54,074 nucleotides of DNA from a virus. The notes beneath the pieces were generated by a model that saw only the letters and a list, made by a program, of their open reading frames with translations, had not been told where the DNA came from and searched no databases. The position numbers and the translations under genes were made by a program. Positions 6,169 to 48,635 of this stretch are shown piece after piece. The stretch is taken from the IMG/VR virus record IMGVR_UViG_3300048804_000160, positions 1 through 54,074 of that record; one strand, 5' to 3'. Each line of letters opens with the position of its first letter. Position 1 is the first letter of the stretch.

Positions 6169-7011
6169 TTATTGAACTTCTGCGGGACTACCGCTTAATT
6201 GTGCAAGTGATTGCTTACCACCTTCTACAAACCAATCAGCGATATCAGAACGTTGATGAACAACATTTAACATTTGGTCGATAACAAGTAGTTTTTCTTC
6301 AGGACTTGATGCTCTAAGTAATGTACTAAGTAGGTCTTCAAGAGGTTTCAGACCATAATCACTTATAAAGCCACCCATTTTACCTTCGGGGTCATTCATA
6401 TAATAATCGAAGAATTGACCTGTCATTGTTTCATAAAGTGTTTCTCTTAGTTGGTCTCTGCTTGGAAGTTCATCACCATATTTATCTTCGATAAAATTTT
6501 TAGCAAATGGATGAACAGTTGTATTACATGGCGAATTATCTTCAGGTTCTTGATATCCCTTTTTAGGATTGCTAAAGGGTATTTCAAGCTGATTTTTATC
6601 AAAAGGTTTATTGTAAACACAATTAAGTTGTTCATCTACCCAATATCCAATATTTTCATCGAATGCTTCTTGGTCGCCCCATTGCGTGTGACCTGCCAGG
6701 TTTGTGAAAATGCTGACTTTCATTGTATTGTTTTTTACAATATCTTCAATCATTTCCAAGCCTCTTGTATCTCTTACAGAACCATAGGTCATATAGTCTT
6801 CCCAAACTTTTTTTAGTCTTGGAAAGGGTATGACGGTCCAAGGAACATGTTTAGTAAATGTTGGATTGTTGTGGTATAGGAAATCATTGAATAGTTCTCC
6901 TTTTAATTCATCATATATTTCAAAATAAGAATAATCAATTTCTTCATCATTGTACGCTTCTTTGAGAAATCTTGTATATTCTTCTCGTATAATTGTCTGT
7001 AAGGACTTCAT
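6169..7011 (-). CDS. Protein with capsid-targeting-like N-terminal tag, 280 aa
   Basis: Begins MKSLQTIIREEYTRFLKEAY, one of five proteins here sharing an (I/L)I(K/R)EE N-terminus followed by an acidic helix. The body (FNDFLYHNNPTFTKHVPWTV..., GHTQWGDQEAFDENIGYWVDEQ, HPFAKNFIEDKYGDELPSR) is not recognised and has no obvious enzymatic motif. By analogy with T4 internal proteins, packaging into the head with tag removal after IRE is inferred. A class B promoter lies 15 nt upstream of the start and a terminator from the lipoprotein gene lies beyond it, so this is a separate late-type unit. Confidence 0.75.
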   Translation of the reverse strand: MKSLQTIIREEYTRFLKEAYNDEEIDYSYFEIYDELKGELFNDFLYHNNPTFTKHVPWTVIPFPRLKKVWEDYMTYGSVRDTRGLEMIEDIVKNNTMKVSIFTNLAGHTQWGDQEAFDENIGYWVDEQLNCVYNKPFDKNQLEIPFSNPKKGYQEPEDNSPCNTTVHPFAKNFIEDKYGDELPSRDQLRETLYETMTGQFFDYYMNDPEGKMGGFISDYGLKPLEDLLSTLLRASSPEEKLLVIDQMLNVVHQRSDIADWFVEGGKQSLAQLSGSPAEVQ

Positions 7012-16027: not shown

Positions 16028-16043
16028 ATTCATAAATTTTTGA

Positions 16044-16114
16044 GGGCATAACGGGACTCGAACCCGTGGCAATTGGTTTTAGAGACCAATGTTCTACCTC
16101 TGAACTATATGCCC
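16044..16114 (-). tRNA. Amber-suppressor tRNA (anticodon CTA), Trp-like body
   Basis: Cloverleaf closes fully: acceptor GGGCATA/TATGCCC, D-stem GTTC/GAAC, anticodon stem TTGGT/ACCAA with loop CTCTAAA, T-stem ACGGG/CCCGT with loop TTCGAGT. Anticodon CTA (16080-16082) pairs with UAG. The anticodon arm is tRNA-Trp-like (normal loop CTCCAAA), so it probably arose from tRNA-Trp by one change, as in the classic E. coli su7 suppressor, which inserts mainly Gln. No CCA is encoded. Amino-acid identity cannot be told from sequence. Confidence 0.9.
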
Positions 16115-36038: not shown

Positions 36039-39000
36039 TTATCCACATTTTGAACTTCCACAACCTTTACAAACAAGACATCCTTCAATAAATTGAAGAT
36101 TTTCACTTCCACATTCAGGGCATTTACCTCTTCCCTTTTCACCGTCCTTAATATATCTTTTTATTGTACGTGCTACGCCATTTTTCCAAGTATTAATATA
36201 GTCTTCTTTAAAGTTCAAAGAATCTATGAGTTCATATTGTTTAATTACTGGCATTCCATGTCTCATGATTCCCGAAATTAATTTAGCATAGTTCCAAAAT
36301 TCGGGATTAAATGCTTGATTTAGTCCAGTATGAACTTGTTTTTCGCCATCACTATCAATATATTCAATATCATATCTTTTTATTTTGATTGGCTTGCTTT
36401 CTGCATCAATATCATCAATTATATTTTTAACTACTTCACATTCTTTCACGTGTGGTGGTAATTTGCTTAAACCATTTTCTAATTTACCTGTAAATATTTC
36501 ATATGGTCTGCCATCTTTCATACCTACAACAGCAATCCACTTTTCCAAATTATTTTGGAATCTATGAATTTCGGCTTTAAGTCTTTTTGGGCGTTTTGGC
36601 GCATTATTTTCTTGAAGTTTTTCTTCTTTTCCTTCATTATTAATAAGAACACCACTGCGACTTTCATCACGATAAACAGTACAACCCTTACAACCACTTC
36701 GCCATGCAGTTTCATACACTTTTGCAACAAGTTCTTCAGTTACATCTTTTGGTAGATTAACTGTTACAGAAATACTGTGGTCTACGTGACGTTGAATTCT
36801 ACCCTGCATTTCAACCTTTTTAACCCAATCTACATCATTTGCAGTTGCCTTATAATATGGAGATTTTTTTACTATTTCATCACGTTGCTCATCAGTCATA
36901 TTTCTGACTGCGTTTATATTATAATTATTAACATCCAGCCATATTTCAAATTTATGGTGAAATACCGGATATTCCTGCCATGCAATACCTTCGGCATCTT
37001 CAAAATCAGTTCTTACGTCTTTTTCTTGCGGATTGATTTTTCTGCGCCTTTTATATACTGGTGAAAAGCAAGGTTCAATTCCTGATGTGGTTTGAGTCAT
37101 GAGACTTGCTGTACCTGTTGGAGCAATTGTAAGTAGTGCGATGTTTCGCCTACCATATTTAATCATACTTTCATATAAATCGGGGTGTTCACTTTTTATG
37201 CGGAGAATAAAGGGATTATTCGCCTCACGTTTTGCATCGTATATTGGAAATGCGCCACGCTCCTTTGCCATTCTGATTGAAGAATCGTATGCATACAACT
37301 TTAAAGCCTTATGCACATTCTCGCTGAAAGTTGTTGCTTCATCAGTACCATAACGAAATCCAAGAGCTGCAAGCATATCACCTTCTGCAGTAACACCAAG
37401 TCCAGTTCTACGACCTCTAATGGTTTTATCCTTAATTCTTTCCCAAAGTCGGATTTCATATAGTTTTAAAAATTCGTCTTCGGGGTCTGAATTAATTTTA
37501 GCAAGAATCTGGTCAATTTTTTCAATTTCCAAATCGATTATATCGTCCATATAACGCATGGCAATTATCACATCGTTTACAAATAAATCCCAATCAAAAT
37601 ATGCGTTTTCTGTAAAAGGATATTTAACATAACCATATAAATTTAGTGATAATAAACGGCAACTATCGTCATTACAAAGAGGAATTTCACCACATCTTCG
37701 TGCAGAAATACCATTAACAATAATATTTCTACCCATATCTTCTTTAATACAATATACTGATTCATTGTTAATGTTTTTTATTACTATAACAGTATCTGTA
37801 AATGATGATTTTATTTGAAAATTATGTTCAACATTAATTTTATCTTCTTTGTCTTTAAAACCTAAAAATCCGACACTATTTTTATATTTAACCAAAGAGC
37901 CACCTAAACTAATTAATTCATATTGTATTTTTGTTTTGTATAATGAATTACCTCCACGACCATTGGGTAAACTTGTTAATTTACTATCTCTACGTTTATA
38001 TATACCAAATATCATTCCGTTTGAATGAAGTATCATTTGAACTTTTCTTAGCATTTCTTCATTGCTCTGCGATAATCTAACAGTAAATCCACTTCTTTGA
38101 GTACCTTGTACTGAACCATCACAATACATAAGTGCTGCAATATAAAATTTACCAATTTTTCTTGAAGAATTATTCATTATAAATTCAGGTACATCATGTT
38201 TGGTGTTATGATTAAATCCTACATTATTTAGTAATTTCGCCAACCATGCAGAAGAAATTCTAATTTTATTATATTTTTCACTACGTGAAACAAAATATTT
38301 ACTCAGTTTCGCATCATTTTCATTATAAAAATCTCCATACTGAAGATATAAAATATCAATTAAACTTAATACGAATTTTTCCATTCTAAATCTATCATCA
38401 CCCCAAAAATCCAAATGAGCACGATTACGTTTTTTATCAAATGTACCATCACCAGTTATTAATCCAATTAATGTTGCTAAAATTTCTTCATTGGTTTCAG
38501 GCAAACAACCAATAATTGAATCAAAAGCATTTGGTATTGCTATTAATATTTCATGTTCAGGAGTTAAATCTTTTGCTTCAATCATTCCCGTTGTAGTTGC
38601 AATGTGATGGTCAGGTGTACATCTTAATTTAAAACCTTTAGATGTTATAATTTCAAGAATTTCGGCATTTTTTTGTGTTAAAAACACAGGACTTGCTATT
38701 CTGATTAATGTTCCTTCTTGTGTGTTATCAATTTTCCAATTTTCTGGTTTTTCTTCACCATCATCAATATATGAAATTCTTCTATCAGAAACTATGTTTG
38801 TTGCTTTTATATCACATGTTGAATTTATAAATTTCGTTTCATTAATTGATGCTAAATCGCCAAATTTAACATATCCGTCTTCAGTTAATAAATATTCGCT
38901 TGCTGGAAAACATGGATTTGTTGAAGTAGTTTTATACCCTAAGTCTGCATAACAATCTGGAACACTTTCACGTATAACTTGGTCCCAGAATAAAATACCT

Positions 39001-39806
39001 GGTTCAGCAGAACGCCAAGCATTGAATATGATTTTCTTCCATAGCTTTTGTGCATCAATTTCTTTAGTAACTTTTGCTTGACCTTCAATTGGAAATTGCT
39101 GTTGATATGTTGTGCCTTGTGTTGCAGCAATCATAAAATCATCGTGGAGTTTTACTGATACGTTTGCACCAGTAACTTTTCCGGGAGTAAATTTGGCATC
39201 AATAAATTTTTCTGAATCAGGATGTCTGATTGAAATACTTTCCATTAGAGCACCCCTGCGACCATCCTGTGCTACTTCCTTTGTACTGTTAGAGTATCTT
39301 TCCATGAAAGGTACAACACCCGTAGAAGTGATTGCAGAGTTCTTTACGGGACTACCTGAAGGTCGTACAAATGAAAGGTCAAGACCTACTCCACCACGTC
39401 TTTTTTCTAATTGTACACATTCTTGGTCGAGTTTCAGAATTCCACCATAACTATCGCTTTCACCATCGTTTCCAATAACAAAACAATTACTGAGGCTTAC
39501 AACTTGGAGGGTATTACCGATTCCTGACATTGGTGAACCTTGTGGTACAATTCTTTCAAAATATTTTATTGTATCATAAATTTGTTCTTCAGTAAGAGGG
39601 TTGGGATATTTCGCTTCGATTCTCGCAAGTTCTTTTGCGATTCTATGATGCATATCATCTGGGTTCAGTTCGTAATAATTCTTATCGTCTTTTAAGCAGT
39701 ATTTTTTCATCCAAACATGTGCTGCCAATTCATCTAATTTAAAATATTGTAATGCAGACTTTTCGACTTCTTGTTTGGGATAACTTTTGAGATTTTTTTC
39801 CGTCAT
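36039..39806 (-). CDS. nrdJ: Class II (B12-dependent) ribonucleotide reductase with intein
   Basis: 1255 residues, of which ~406 are an intein. Exteins show NrdJ motifs: PQGSPMSGIGN, VQLEKRRGGVGLDLSFVRPS, SAEPGILFWDQV, TSTNP joined to CGEIPLC (active-site Cys), TAPTG-type ALLTIAPTGTASLMTQTTSG, the redox-type GCKGCTVYRDESRSG, and a C-terminal zinc ribbon CPECGSENLQFIEGCLVCKG. The enzyme makes dNTP precursors without oxygen or a separate radical subunit. The intein interrupts the active-site loop exactly before the catalytic Cys, so splicing is needed for activity. Class A promoter 34 nt upstream. Confidence 0.9.
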   Translation of the reverse strand: MTEKNLKSYPKQEVEKSALQYFKLDELAAHVWMKKYCLKDDKNYYELNPDDMHHRIAKELARIEAKYPNPLTEEQIYDTIKYFERIVPQGSPMSGIGNTLQVVSLSNCFVIGNDGESDSYGGILKLDQECVQLEKRRGGVGLDLSFVRPSGSPVKNSAITSTGVVPFMERYSNSTKEVAQDGRRGALMESISIRHPDSEKFIDAKFTPGKVTGANVSVKLHDDFMIAATQGTTYQQQFPIEGQAKVTKEIDAQKLWKKIIFNAWRSAEPGILFWDQVIRESVPDCYADLGYKTTSTNPCFPASEYLLTEDGYVKFGDLASINETKFINSTCDIKATNIVSDRRISYIDDGEEKPENWKIDNTQEGTLIRIASPVFLTQKNAEILEIITSKGFKLRCTPDHHIATTTGMIEAKDLTPEHEILIAIPNAFDSIIGCLPETNEEILATLIGLITGDGTFDKKRNRAHLDFWGDDRFRMEKFVLSLIDILYLQYGDFYNENDAKLSKYFVSRSEKYNKIRISSAWLAKLLNNVGFNHNTKHDVPEFIMNNSSRKIGKFYIAALMYCDGSVQGTQRSGFTVRLSQSNEEMLRKVQMILHSNGMIFGIYKRRDSKLTSLPNGRGGNSLYKTKIQYELISLGGSLVKYKNSVGFLGFKDKEDKINVEHNFQIKSSFTDTVIVIKNINNESVYCIKEDMGRNIIVNGISARRCGEIPLCNDDSCRLLSLNLYGYVKYPFTENAYFDWDLFVNDVIIAMRYMDDIIDLEIEKIDQILAKINSDPEDEFLKLYEIRLWERIKDKTIRGRRTGLGVTAEGDMLAALGFRYGTDEATTFSENVHKALKLYAYDSSIRMAKERGAFPIYDAKREANNPFILRIKSEHPDLYESMIKYGRRNIALLTIAPTGTASLMTQTTSGIEPCFSPVYKRRRKINPQEKDVRTDFEDAEGIAWQEYPVFHHKFEIWLDVNNYNINAVRNMTDEQRDEIVKKSPYYKATANDVDWVKKVEMQGRIQRHVDHSISVTVNLPKDVTEELVAKVYETAWRSGCKGCTVYRDESRSGVLINNEGKEEKLQENNAPKRPKRLKAEIHRFQNNLEKWIAVVGMKDGRPYEIFTGKLENGLSKLPPHVKECEVVKNIIDDIDAESKPIKIKRYDIEYIDSDGEKQVHTGLNQAFNPEFWNYAKLISGIMRHGMPVIKQYELIDSLNFKEDYINTWKNGVARTIKRYIKDGEKGRGKCPECGSENLQFIEGCLVCKGCGSSKCG
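37695..38912 (-). other. Intein with LAGLIDADG endonuclease in nrdJ
   Basis: Residues ~299-704. Starts with Cys (CFPASEYLLTEDGYVKF, block A), has block B LRCTPDHHIATTTG, two LAGLIDADG motifs (LIGLITGDGTFDK and FYIAALMYCDGSV), and ends GRNIIVNGISARR before the extein Cys. The usual terminal His-Asn is replaced by Arg-Arg, which should block Asn cyclisation. Confidence 0.85.
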
Positions 39807-42229: not shown

Positions 42230-42752
42230 TTACACATTATTTTCAAGTACGGTTTCATAATAATTAATTAACTGTTGTTCAGTACTGAAATACAGCACGT
42301 TAGTGGGTGGAGTATAATTAACCATTTCTCTGCCTTTTATGACTAAACCATCATATCCAAGTCTTTGCATTTCATCTGCAATCGTTGTTTTGCTACTGAA
42401 AAATTCATTACTTCTCGGCACACCATGCATTTTACAAAAATTAGTAACTACTTGTTGTAAAAAAATTTTCTGCATCATTTGTAGTATACACTATTTTTGG
42501 TTTCTTTGGTATTGCATTAACAAGAAAATAAACCTTACCATATTGTTTTGCCAAATCTCTATTCCCTAAAAAGGCAGAATATAAACCTTGTCCATAACTT
42601 GCAAATCCACCATTCTCCGCAGAATTATTATTATCACGTATACCTCTTATAGTTACGTTTTGTCGTTTCCACTTTAAATAATTGACATGATTATAGTCTT
42701 CAGTCACTACATTTGCAATTTCTTCTTTAATAATGTTAACAATACTTTTCAT
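42230..42752 (-). pseudogene. Tagged ADP-ribosyltransferase-like gene, frame broken at a T7 run
   Basis: The first part (to 42441) begins MKSIVNIIKEEIANVVTEDY, the capsid-targeting-like tag, and continues NVTIRGIRDNN...GFASYGQGLYSAFLGNRDLA, KVYFLVNAIP. The second part, in another frame, gives FCKMHGVPRSNE, RLGYDGLVIKGREMVNYTPP and NVLYFSTEQQ. Together they look like an ADP-ribosyltransferase fold protein (GxGLYxS, then GYDGxVIxGxExVxxxP). The frames join at AAAATTTTTTTAC (42457-42470); one T fewer would restore one 174-codon gene. This may be an assembly error, a real frameshift mutation, or programmed +1 shifting. T4 Alt is a packaged ADP-ribosyltransferase, which fits the tag. Overlaps the upstream protease stop as TAATG. 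Confidence 0.7.
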
Positions 42753-46176: not shown

Positions 46177-46209
46177 CAAATATATAAAAGAATTTCATAT
46201 AAAATCAAG
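46177..46209 (-). promoter_or_regulatory. Class A promoter overlapping a divergent class B element
   Basis: CTTG, 21 nt, TATATTTG toward methyltransferase/ligase. Its -33 box touches the plus-strand GTATTTATA at 46209. Confidence 0.7.
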
Positions 46210-46217
46210 TATTTATA
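46209..46217 (+). promoter_or_regulatory. Class B promoter element, plus strand
   Basis: AAGTATTTATAAAAAA, 16 nt before ATG 46234; start of the plus-strand tagged-protein operon. Confidence 0.6.
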
Positions 46218-46233
46218 AAAAATGTGGATTTAC

Positions 46234-46683
46234 ATGAAATTAAAATCTCTTATTAAAGAAGAATTAATTGATATGGTTCGGGAAACTGCAACTCAAGCAC
46301 CCGGAGCAACACTCGTAAAAGATGATAGGCTTAAATTCACTTCAATAGTTAATTCAACATTCAACAATTATGAAGGATTTACCAAGGATTTCGATACGGG
46401 CATTGATACAAGTAAAATTATTGTTCATTGGAACGTTAATTTTTTAGTAAATCCCGAAGGAATTTATAAGTTTAATGTTGAGGTAGAGCAAGTTGAGGGT
46501 CAATTTATCTTACGTATGTATGACAAACACTCCGATGAATTAATGCAAGAAACACCAAAAAATATTGCTGATACCAAGTGGAAATTTGAAATTGGTGAAG
46601 TTGCCGTTGAACAGGGTGGATTTTTATTTGTGAGAGAATTAGAATTCGATTTTAAAAATAATGTTTGTAACGTAGTATTTTAA
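46234..46683 (+). CDS. Protein with capsid-targeting-like tag, 149 aa
   Basis: MKLKSLIKEELIDMVRETAT start; ATG 46234 is chosen over 46222 because of promoter spacing. The remainder is a beta-rich domain (SKIIVHWNVNFLVNPEGIYK, EVAVEQGGFLFVRELEFDFK). First gene of a plus-strand run of four tagged proteins plus a membrane protein. Function unknown; virion internal protein inferred from the tag. Confidence 0.75.
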   Translation: MKLKSLIKEELIDMVRETATQAPGATLVKDDRLKFTSIVNSTFNNYEGFTKDFDTGIDTSKIIVHWNVNFLVNPEGIYKFNVEVEQVEGQFILRMYDKHSDELMQETPKNIADTKWKFEIGEVAVEQGGFLFVRELEFDFKNNVCNVVF

Positions 46684-46686
46684 CCA

Positions 46687-47529
46687 ATGAACTTAACATC
46701 ATTAATTAAAGAAGAGGTTAATGGCTTTCTTAATGAGTTTGCCGAAGAAGATATTGTTGATAGCCGTAATATTAATTTGCAGAAGGAATATGATGATTTA
46801 AATAAATTACTTTGGGAAGGCAAGTTGCCTAATGTCCCACTGAAATTTGATGCCAAAAAGAATGGATATGGTCGTGTAAATGGTATGATTGAACGATTCA
46901 CGAGAAAAGTAATTGTACATCATCTGGCAATATCAAACATGTATAGTTTCACATATCGTCAATTTAGAAATATTATGGCACATGAACAAATTCACGTATA
47001 TCAAATGGCAGTAAAGCAAGAAAGGGGTGGTCATGGTTGGGATTTTGAGCGTGAGGCACGTAGAATTAATGGTATGGGATTGGGATTTAATATTACTGCA
47101 AGAAACGGTGAAGATATACCAGTATCGGACCAAGCAAAACAAAATTTTAGTAAGAAAAAATTGATTGCTATGGTATTGAATTTTGATGGACAATATAGCT
47201 TAACATTGACAACTCCGAGCGTATATGAAAGAGAAGCAGACCAATTTTTTAAGATTTTTGACAGTGCAGTAAATAAGTTTCACAAATATAGTAGTGTGGA
47301 AATAACTGTAATTGAAACATCAAATCCTGAAGTAATGGGATTTCCAGTTGCAAGAACATTCATGAGAAGTGTAAGGTCAGTACCATTACATGACAGATTA
47401 CTTGAGCAATTGCTTAACGATAAAATAATTAAGGAAGTAAAAATAAAAAGAGGTATGCCAATGTCGGTATCCGAACAAGTTCTTTCAGAAGCCAATACGG
47501 GCGAATGGGAAGAAATAGAAATAGTTTAA
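46687..47529 (+). CDS. Tagged SprT-like metalloprotease
   Basis: 280 residues. Tag MNLTSLIKEEVNGFLNEFAE, then a SprT/Spartan-type domain: YDDLNKLLWEGKLPNVPLKF, GYGRVNGMI, zinc-binding AHEQIHVYQM (HExxH, ~100), and GGHGWDFEREARRING with the third His. The C-terminal ~130 residues are unrecognised. SprT-like proteases cut DNA-bound proteins; a packaged, injected one could act on host nucleoid proteins at infection. That role is inference. Confidence 0.78.
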   Translation: MNLTSLIKEEVNGFLNEFAEEDIVDSRNINLQKEYDDLNKLLWEGKLPNVPLKFDAKKNGYGRVNGMIERFTRKVIVHHLAISNMYSFTYRQFRNIMAHEQIHVYQMAVKQERGGHGWDFEREARRINGMGLGFNITARNGEDIPVSDQAKQNFSKKKLIAMVLNFDGQYSLTLTTPSVYEREADQFFKIFDSAVNKFHKYSSVEITVIETSNPEVMGFPVARTFMRSVRSVPLHDRLLEQLLNDKIIKEVKIKRGMPMSVSEQVLSEANTGEWEEIEIV

Positions 47530-47531
47530 CA

Positions 47532-47900
47532 ATGAAAAATAATAAACAAAGACTTTATGAAGTCATGGAAAGAGTAGCACCAAATTTTGGTGAAAATGAT
47601 TATAAGAAAATCATGAATGATTTTCCTGGTCATGCCAAATATGTAAATCCCGTAGATTCTCTACAATATAAGTGGTATCAAGAAGTATTGCAGTTCATGC
47701 AAGGCAATAATCCTATTGAGCAAAAAGCGGAACTTGTTAAATTTTTTCAGAATGACTTTTTTGGCATTGACTACGGAGAATTTCAAACAGACGAAGAAAT
47801 GGTTAATTGGTGGCTTTCTCCTGAAGAACAGAAATTTATTGCAGATGAAATGAACCCCAATGGCTCACCAAGTGAATTACAGAATGCACCGCTTAAATAA
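47532..47900 (+). CDS. Hypothetical protein with KQRLxEVM N-terminus, copy 1
   Basis: 122 residues from ATG 47532 (MKNNKQRLYEVMERVAPNFG). Shares its N-terminus with the next gene; LYE fits the (L/I)xE head-protease pattern. C-terminal part acidic/aromatic (EEMVNWWLSPEEQKF). 2 nt after the metalloprotease gene. Function unknown. Confidence 0.7.
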   Translation: MKNNKQRLYEVMERVAPNFGENDYKKIMNDFPGHAKYVNPVDSLQYKWYQEVLQFMQGNNPIEQKAELVKFFQNDFFGIDYGEFQTDEEMVNWWLSPEEQKFIADEMNPNGSPSELQNAPLK

Positions 47901-47907
47901 ATTTAAT

Positions 47908-48291
47908 ATGAAAAGAAACGATAAACAAAGACTTTTCGAAGTCATGCAAAGACTCGATAAAACATTTAATCCTAAGTTGAATGAAATGTTAGAGTCGCCA
48001 GAAGAAGAACAGACTAATCCAGATTTTCTTCCAATAACTACTCCTGTTGGAAGTCCTGATGATAAGTTATTTACTGAGGTTGTTAATCAAGGAATTGATT
48101 CGCATCTTGAAGGCTTTACCAAAAGTAAGTTCGAGATTAAAAACAGTTCGTTGGGTAATAGGAGAATATTTAACTTTCATAGGTCCGAATTACCAATATT
48201 GCTCAGAAGGTTAGAAGAAATTGGCAGTCCGGAAGCACTTCAATGGAAAGAAGACATTGAGCAATATAAAGATACTCCGGTATTTCATTAA
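47908..48291 (+). CDS. Hypothetical protein with KQRLxEVM N-terminus, copy 2
   Basis: 127 residues from ATG 47908 (MKRNDKQRLFEVMQRLDKTF). Only the first ~20 residues resemble the preceding protein; the body (LFTEVVNQGIDSHLEGFTKS, SLGNRRIFNFHRSELPILLR) differs. This shared start with unlike bodies repeats what is seen for the LIKEE tag. Confidence 0.7.
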   Translation: MKRNDKQRLFEVMQRLDKTFNPKLNEMLESPEEEQTNPDFLPITTPVGSPDDKLFTEVVNQGIDSHLEGFTKSKFEIKNSSLGNRRIFNFHRSELPILLRRLEEIGSPEALQWKEDIEQYKDTPVFH

Positions 48292-48299
48292 AAATAAAT

Positions 48300-48308
48300 G
48301 TATTTATA
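48300..48308 (+). promoter_or_regulatory. Class B promoter element, plus strand
   Basis: TGTATTTATAATAAA, 12 nt before ATG 48321. Confidence 0.6.
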
Positions 48309-48320
48309 ATAAAAAATAAT

Positions 48321-48635
48321 ATGAAAAAATATTGGGAAATGTTCGTAGCATGGCTGAAAGCAGTTGTGTTACCTTGGTTAAAAGGATTGTGGTTAAAATT
48401 TACCACATGGTTTATGGGCAAGGAACTTGCATGGATTAAGAAAAATTGGAAAGAAATCGCTAATTTTCTTATTATATTAATTGCATACTGGAAACTTAAG
48501 GCAGATAGTGCTGTGTTTGTTGCTTTTTTGTTAAAAGCATGGCTTATTGCAATGACTTTGTATTATGTCTTTATTCAAGGACTACAAATACAGAAGTTGT
48601 TTAAGAAAACACCACCTGCACCGCCTGTAGCATAA
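48321..48635 (+). CDS. Small membrane protein, holin-like candidate, 104 aa
   Basis: Tryptophan-rich N-terminal amphipathic region (MKKYWEMFVAWLKAVVLPWL), then two hydrophobic helices (IANFLIILIAYWKL and AVFVAFLLKAWLIAMTLYYV) and a tail KKTPPAPPVA. Own class B promoter and a strong terminator. Size and topology suit a phage holin, but no homology is claimed. Confidence 0.65.
   Translation: MKKYWEMFVAWLKAVVLPWLKGLWLKFTTWFMGKELAWIKKNWKEIANFLIILIAYWKLKADSAVFVAFLLKAWLIAMTLYYVFIQGLQIQKLFKKTPPAPPVA

Follow-up and report, generated by a model that had tools for sequence, protein, structure and literature searches.

The window analysed here is the whole of the IMG/VR record IMGVR_UViG_3300048804_000160, with a length of 54,074 nt, and probably represents a fragment of a phage genome. 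On its + strand it carries a run of four genes, the first two of which start with one shared N-terminal peptide (tag 1) and the last two, P0001 and P0002, with another (tag 2). The stretch 46222-48635 is identical in a near-identical record of 83 kb (G001). The features are as follows.

6169..7011, - strand: a further tag-1 gene (MKSLQTIIREEYTRFLKE)
42230..42752, - strand: tag-1 gene (MKSIVNIIKEEIANVVTE), two frames in the window, one frame of 173 aa in G001 (L086 6303-6824)
46209..46216, + strand: promoter-like motif GTATTTAT, just upstream of the tagged run of genes
46234..46683, + strand: operon gene 1 with tag 1 (MKLKSLIKEELIDMVRE, MKLKSLIKEEL..)
46687..47529, + strand: operon gene 2 with tag 1 (MNLTSLIKEEVNGFLNE, MNLTSLIKEEV..) on an SprT-like metallopeptidase
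47532..47900, + strand: gene P0001, 122 aa, tag 2 and a predicted helical cargo
47532..47588, + strand: tag 2 of P0001, residues 1-19 (MKNNKQRLYEVMERVAPNF), short form, terminal LxE missing
47908..48291, + strand: gene P0002, 127 aa
47908..47985, + strand: tag 2 of P0002, residues 1-26 (MKRNDKQRLFEVMQRLDKTFNPKLNE), full form with LNE at its end
48016..48288, + strand: conserved cargo domain of P0002 (FLPITTPVGS..VNQGIDSHLEGFTKS..)

The SprT-like assignment of operon gene 2 (Pfam, E 1e-07) was obtained on its identical copy in G001. Elsewhere in the window, ARAGORN revealed 24 tRNA genes, one of which (16042-16114, - strand) has the anticodon CTA and was labelled Pyl, so that it may be an amber-suppressor tRNA. 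The gene at 36039-39806 (- strand) reads by eye as a ribonucleotide reductase with an intein-like insert; its best alignment with the relative in record G004 covers 451 aa at 70%.

Residues 2-19 of P0001 and 3-20 of P0002 are identical at 10 of 18 positions (E 3e-05, BLASTP, single comparison), which confirms the claim of the initial annotation that two unlike, adjacent proteins share an N-terminus, with the likeness covering about 18 residues only. A homologue of P0001 (L184) has the full tag ending in TFKPKLNE, plus about 20 further residues, where the window has the short form. In the AlphaFold model of P0002, a tag helix at residues 5-16 (pLDDT about 50) and a linker below 50 precede an alpha/beta domain at 40-121, mostly confident; P0001 was modelled as all-helical with low confidence (mean pLDDT 58). 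Neither protein had an informative match in Pfam or PHROGs, P0001 showing only a weak one to phrog_4734 (E 0.01), and NCBIfam and PADLOC gave nothing for P0001. A fold search with the P0002 model in PDB and viral libraries returned no match at E 1e-3 or better, and no match to the tag consensus or P0002 was found among 50,697 phage records, for which a query of 26 residues is perhaps too short.

Tag 2 is a recurrent N-terminal label on otherwise unrelated proteins, with a consensus of roughly MKKxxKQRLFEVMxR[LV]DKTFKPKLNE and a length of about 26 residues. The initial annotation had proposed a motif search in the genome and its relatives; viral contigs scanned with a degenerate DNA pattern that encodes KQRL[FY]E[VIM]MxR yielded 51 stretches from 43 records, the conservation of KQRL[FY]E in this main set being imposed by the search pattern itself. 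Its position is strictly N-terminal: the core motif occurs 61 times in the window and the 51 loci, each time 3-9 residues after an in-frame Met, on 52 distinct proteins, though these counts are not independent because the records and the proteins are mutually related. The proteins form about 21 clusters, a number that is approximate because of single linkage at score 70 and that includes one truncated protein, probably a member of another cluster. In a reverse search, TFKPKLNE alone was matched 47 times; in 40 cases (31 distinct) it immediately follows an N-terminal helix of this type, in variants such as KxRLFEVM, KNRIMEVM and KQLLFENM, and [LI][FM]E occupies a constant position in all 40; among the seven remaining matches, one (L177) is cut off by the locus end. 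The same DNA pattern found nine matches in cellular genomes, namely one tag-like match on a contig of a Bacteroidota MAG, which hints at the host, six internal to Marinobacter proteins, and two in short frames without a tag-like start.

A 21-position profile of tag 2 was then scored on gene starts. In G001, the genes of P0001 and P0002 reached 68.5 and 43.4 bits against -7.9 for the best internal-window control, some of the scored genes, including P0001 and P0002, having been used to build the profile. More than 16 bits were reached by six genes in G003 (where a seventh is weak, with 10.5 bits), three in G004, six in G011 and two in G001, so that a single record has up to six tag-2 genes; internal-window controls never rose above -3.3 in all records scored. 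No tag-2 gene was detected by the profile in the 150 of 160 kb examined of Flavobacterium phage immuto. The strings KQRLFEVM, FKPKLNE and QRLFEVMGR are absent from the literature searched, which covers few subscription papers, and the accessible portions of PMC3012670, PMC9958956, PMC7824862, PMC9024508, PMC5694885 and PMC9723584 make no mention of tag 2.

The shared N-terminus had been proposed to be either a second cargo tag or a variant of the first. The former is supported, as differing families carry tag 2; the latter was rejected, since no tag-1 gene of G001 scores more than 4 bits with the tag-2 profile. Tag 1 has the consensus MxLxxLIKEExxxFLxE, ends mostly in LxE and likewise occurs on unlike proteins. 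The start of a scaffold-like protein, TSIIKEAL or SSIIKEAL (L091 3011, L088 10828), resembles tag 1 by eye.

The cargo of tag 2 is modular. Forty-six tagged proteins were compared with family databases, comprising 40 of the 52 (12 near-duplicates or truncated proteins were dropped) and six from whole records; matches were reported per set, without naming the matching member. Pfam assigned four of them to GP88, two to DUF4313 and two, weakly, to Peptidase_M91 (E 0.0023), and single members to AAA_33, Cupin_2, ART-PolyVal, Peptidase_M78 (weak) and others, while PHROGs placed three in a metallo-protease family and one with polynucleotide kinases, the latter also found in NCBIfam. In tagged relatives, the P0002 domain begins anywhere from 30 to 282 residues after the protein start.

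We infer, with good confidence, that the shared N-terminus is a capsid-targeting propeptide which would load effectors and internal proteins into the prohead and be cut off there. A rather unlikely alternative is that it is a helix for docking or oligomerisation in a different phage assembly, for instance a complex for host takeover, the tail or a compartment inside the cell, with LxE as a helix cap or a by-product of an acidic linker. The sequence behind the helix bears on both. The [LI]xE motif, which is that of the T4 prohead protease, is enriched there: 42 of 52 proteins have it within 18 residues after the helix (shuffle mean 12.7, maximum 24 in 2000 shuffles), against 64 of 398 downstream control windows, and, with one member per cluster, it is present in 12 of 21 (shuffle mean 3.7; none of 5000 shuffles reached 12). 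LNE alone is found in 30 of 52 proteins, where shuffles average 0.9, and in one of 398 downstream windows, which speaks against a mere helix cap or linker. What favours the other assembly is that the terminal [LI]xE, present in P0002, is missing in nine of the 21 cluster representatives, P0001 among them; in such proteins the RL[FY]E inside the tag may be used instead, or there may be no cleavage. In a lysine-rich tagged family, all 23 distinct members have [LI]xE adjoining WNFDK[KG] on its N-terminal side. For the 19 with a recognised start, the distance from the tag Met to WNF is 29-32 residues in three proteins, in which a short tag ends there, and 91-117 residues in 16, in which an acidic stretch precedes WNF. 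That [LI]xE is kept at such different distances again argues against the alternative, and is most simply explained by a protease site where the mature protein begins.

Tag 2 also co-occurs with T4-type head genes, a further point against another assembly. In 22 of the 43 tag-2 records, mostly the longer ones and including some near-duplicates, Peptidase_S77 (S77) was found in 14 and Gp23 above the cut-off in 14, each being not found in the other eight. Among the eight tag-2 records longer than 100 kb, S77 is present in seven and gp23 in all; the exception for S77 is G007, in which gp23 lies within 3 kb of the record end. Five further tag-2 records revealed both genes in four cases. Neither gene was found in the window's record or in G001, both probably fragments, or in G034 (208 kb), which has tag 2 and thereby counts for the alternative. 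The genes of the protease, a scaffold-like protein and the capsid protein are clustered in all three records inspected for this, and tagged genes of G003 are found close to T4-type portal and terminase genes.

All 14 capsid proteins compared, one per record, carry [IL]NE at residues 58-60, which likewise counts for the head and against another assembly. In T4, gp23 has LTE at 63-65 and gp24 has LLRE at its cleavage site; gp23 loses 65 residues and gp24 loses 10, according to the available part of PMC9958956. An alignment of the capsid [IL]NE with the LTE of T4 was rejected, as MAFFT placed a 34-residue gap across the T4 site, and the likeness is therefore one of position, not of alignment. At 11 protease loci (L053-L063, 11 of 17 inspected), all 11 sequences display [LIV]xE shortly before a conserved stretch, a count made without a control. 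In six tag-2 records (G005, G012, G013, G030, G031 and G032; L064-L069, L194, L195), the match to the prohead protease profile is split in two, with a spacing of about 1 kb, and a single open frame of 598-651 aa spans both parts; the insert is perhaps an intein. Another conserved large protein (671-803 aa in three cases, L089 5862, L090 7760 and L109 14554, and found at others) has a helix-like start and [LIV]KE before LGTLIDYKRA; its gene lies near the portal and terminase in G003, and it is possibly a processed core protein. By eye its N-terminus is similar to tag 2, but only two of six sequences scored above zero with the profile.

The distribution of the P0002 domain touches on the same question. 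At 15 loci with this domain, tag 2 is present on eight proteins, including one in G001, and a tag-1 start on one (L139, MKLQEFVTKEVEKLIEES); one has another start (L138), four are untagged, and one runs off the contig at its start (L136). The four untagged proteins are short, and two of them are alike. For the zincin domain, three of four loci have tag 2, and the fourth (L147) is an untagged homologue with 33% identity. No S77, gp23 or tag-2 match was found in the records of the four untagged proteins and of L147, with lengths of 61, 37, 214, 203 and 129 kb, or in that of L138 (18 kb). The record of L139 (372 kb) has both S77 and gp23, no match to the tag-2 pattern, and tag-1-like starts on 14 of 469 genes, as counted by a loose pattern without a control. 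We have counted it in favour of head targeting that untagged homologues occur in records in which neither head gene was found, and the tag-1-bearing homologue where both exist. As this homologue of the P0002 domain bears tag 1 in another T4-like phage, tag 1 and tag 2 look interchangeable on their cargo. Three neighbouring proteins of the 372 kb record (L211 7934-8724) share another N-terminal motif, HSxVxLITNSST.

Under the propeptide reading, the predicted amphipathic helix KQRLFEVMxRL would most likely dock on the core of the prohead while the head is being assembled. After completion of the shell, a gp21-type protease would, by analogy with T4, cut at [LI]xE, usually the LNE at the tag end, and perhaps at RL[FY]E inside the tag as well. 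The mature protein would then stay in the head and be injected together with the DNA, again as in T4. The anatomy of P0002, with a low-confidence predicted helix, an unstructured linker and a folded domain, fits such a propeptide.

It is very improbable that the conserved element is the nucleic acid itself, namely a signal for translation or regulation in the surroundings of the start codon. Of the 52 tag-2 genes, 24 have the promoter-like motif GTATTTAT in the 60 bp upstream, which favours such a signal in that some of the 5' region may have spread along with the tag. Synonymous codons nevertheless vary (five for Leu4, four each for Arg3, Val7 and Pro17, numbered from the K of KQRL), and conservation in the protein frame continues to about residue 26. 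In four records, GTATTTAT was found upstream of 44 of 291, 48 of 289, 25 of 95 and 24 of 133 genes, against 0-13 genes for five permuted, reversed or complemented control motifs in the same records. It also precedes the genes of the protease, the scaffold-like protein, the portal and the terminase, and many others, in related records. Mostly it lies 13-25 bp upstream of genes and is strongly orientation-specific (46209; L090, L078, L088 and others). GTATTTAT is a candidate phage promoter common to tagged, head and other genes, and might be a 'late' one. Least credible of all is a tandem gene duplication with later divergence of the remainder, for which the adjacency of P0001 and P0002 and their roughly 18 common residues could speak: full-length homology, which the initial annotation had named as the mark of a simple duplication, is contradicted by BLASTP (no similarity beyond the N-terminus, the sole other segment having E 0.26), the tag stands on Pfam-distinct domains, and homologues of the P0002 domain without the tag exist.

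The carriers of the proposed propeptide are T4-like giant phages, known mostly from environmental DNA, with Bacteroidota as probable hosts. Among isolates, a Microcystis phage and Flavobacterium phage immuto, whose host is Flavobacterium sp. LMO8, come nearest by capsid protein, each at about 33%, and the available part of PMC9723584 describes Bacteroidetes phages that reach 331 kb and have head genes of this kind. In immuto, other N-termini are shared by unlike proteins (L126, L127 and L128; KKQILSEQFxRMQxLAGIITES, ENFDLKKFLVENKLTxNSxLL and KKSQLRxIIKEEL), and this phage offers a culturable system for such tags. A more speculative extension, which we consider doubtful yet worth stating, is that several address codes for head loading exist in parallel, with tags 1 and 2 docking on different core partners and with effectors such as peptidases, kinases and proteins of the ADP-ribosyltransferase type switching between them by exchange of a module of about 25 residues. 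If this were true, the head would be a programmable delivery system. Since the tagged proteins number in the dozens, fall into two tag classes or more and include one natural swap, the targeting rule can be searched for by sequence comparison, and the tag could serve as a simple search that predicts which uncharacterised phage proteins enter the host with the DNA.

Several known systems invite comparison. For DarB of phage P1, the N-terminal 30 residues suffice to take a reporter to the capsid; in the part of PMC9024508 available, the P1 capsid is compared with that of HK97 and the signal is described for DarB, whereas tag 2 occurs on dozens of proteins. In SPN3US and phiKZ, a related prohead protease removes N-terminal propeptides from inner-head proteins, and two paralogues have identical first 15 residues, a sharing reminiscent of tag 2. 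Their propeptides are mostly longer than 100 residues, however, the SPN3US motif is AxE, unlike that of tag 2, and a common tag on dozens of unrelated proteins is not reported in the accessible text of PMC5694885, from which these details are taken. Within the window itself, tags 1 and 2 are both N-terminal on unlike proteins, LxE standing mostly at the tag-1 end, but they differ in consensus.

The closest parallel is the capsid-targeting sequence (CTS) of T4, which directs internal proteins to the prohead core, their N-terminal peptides being removed by gp21; IPI and Alt then act in the host (PMC3012670, PMC9958956 and PMC5694885, in the portions available). The CTS of IPII and IPIII resembles tag 2 in being short, N-terminal and borne by unlike proteins; it closes with [IL]xE (MKTYQEFIAE), as the full form of tag 2 does, and T4, like most tag-2 records searched, has a gp21-type protease and gp23. 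The CTS comprises about 10 residues, in contrast to about 26 for tag 2, with its roughly 21 cargo clusters and a second tag class in the window. No significant similarity between tag 2 and the T4 CTS was found, 275 and 770 of 2000 shuffles scoring as high, and the best score of four tag-1 sequences against it was reached by 62 of 2000 shuffles, uncorrected. Since no relationship to the CTS is detectable, tag 2 would work like it without established homology, and our best reading, by analogy, is that of a tag which acts as the T4 CTS does while being unrelated to it in sequence.
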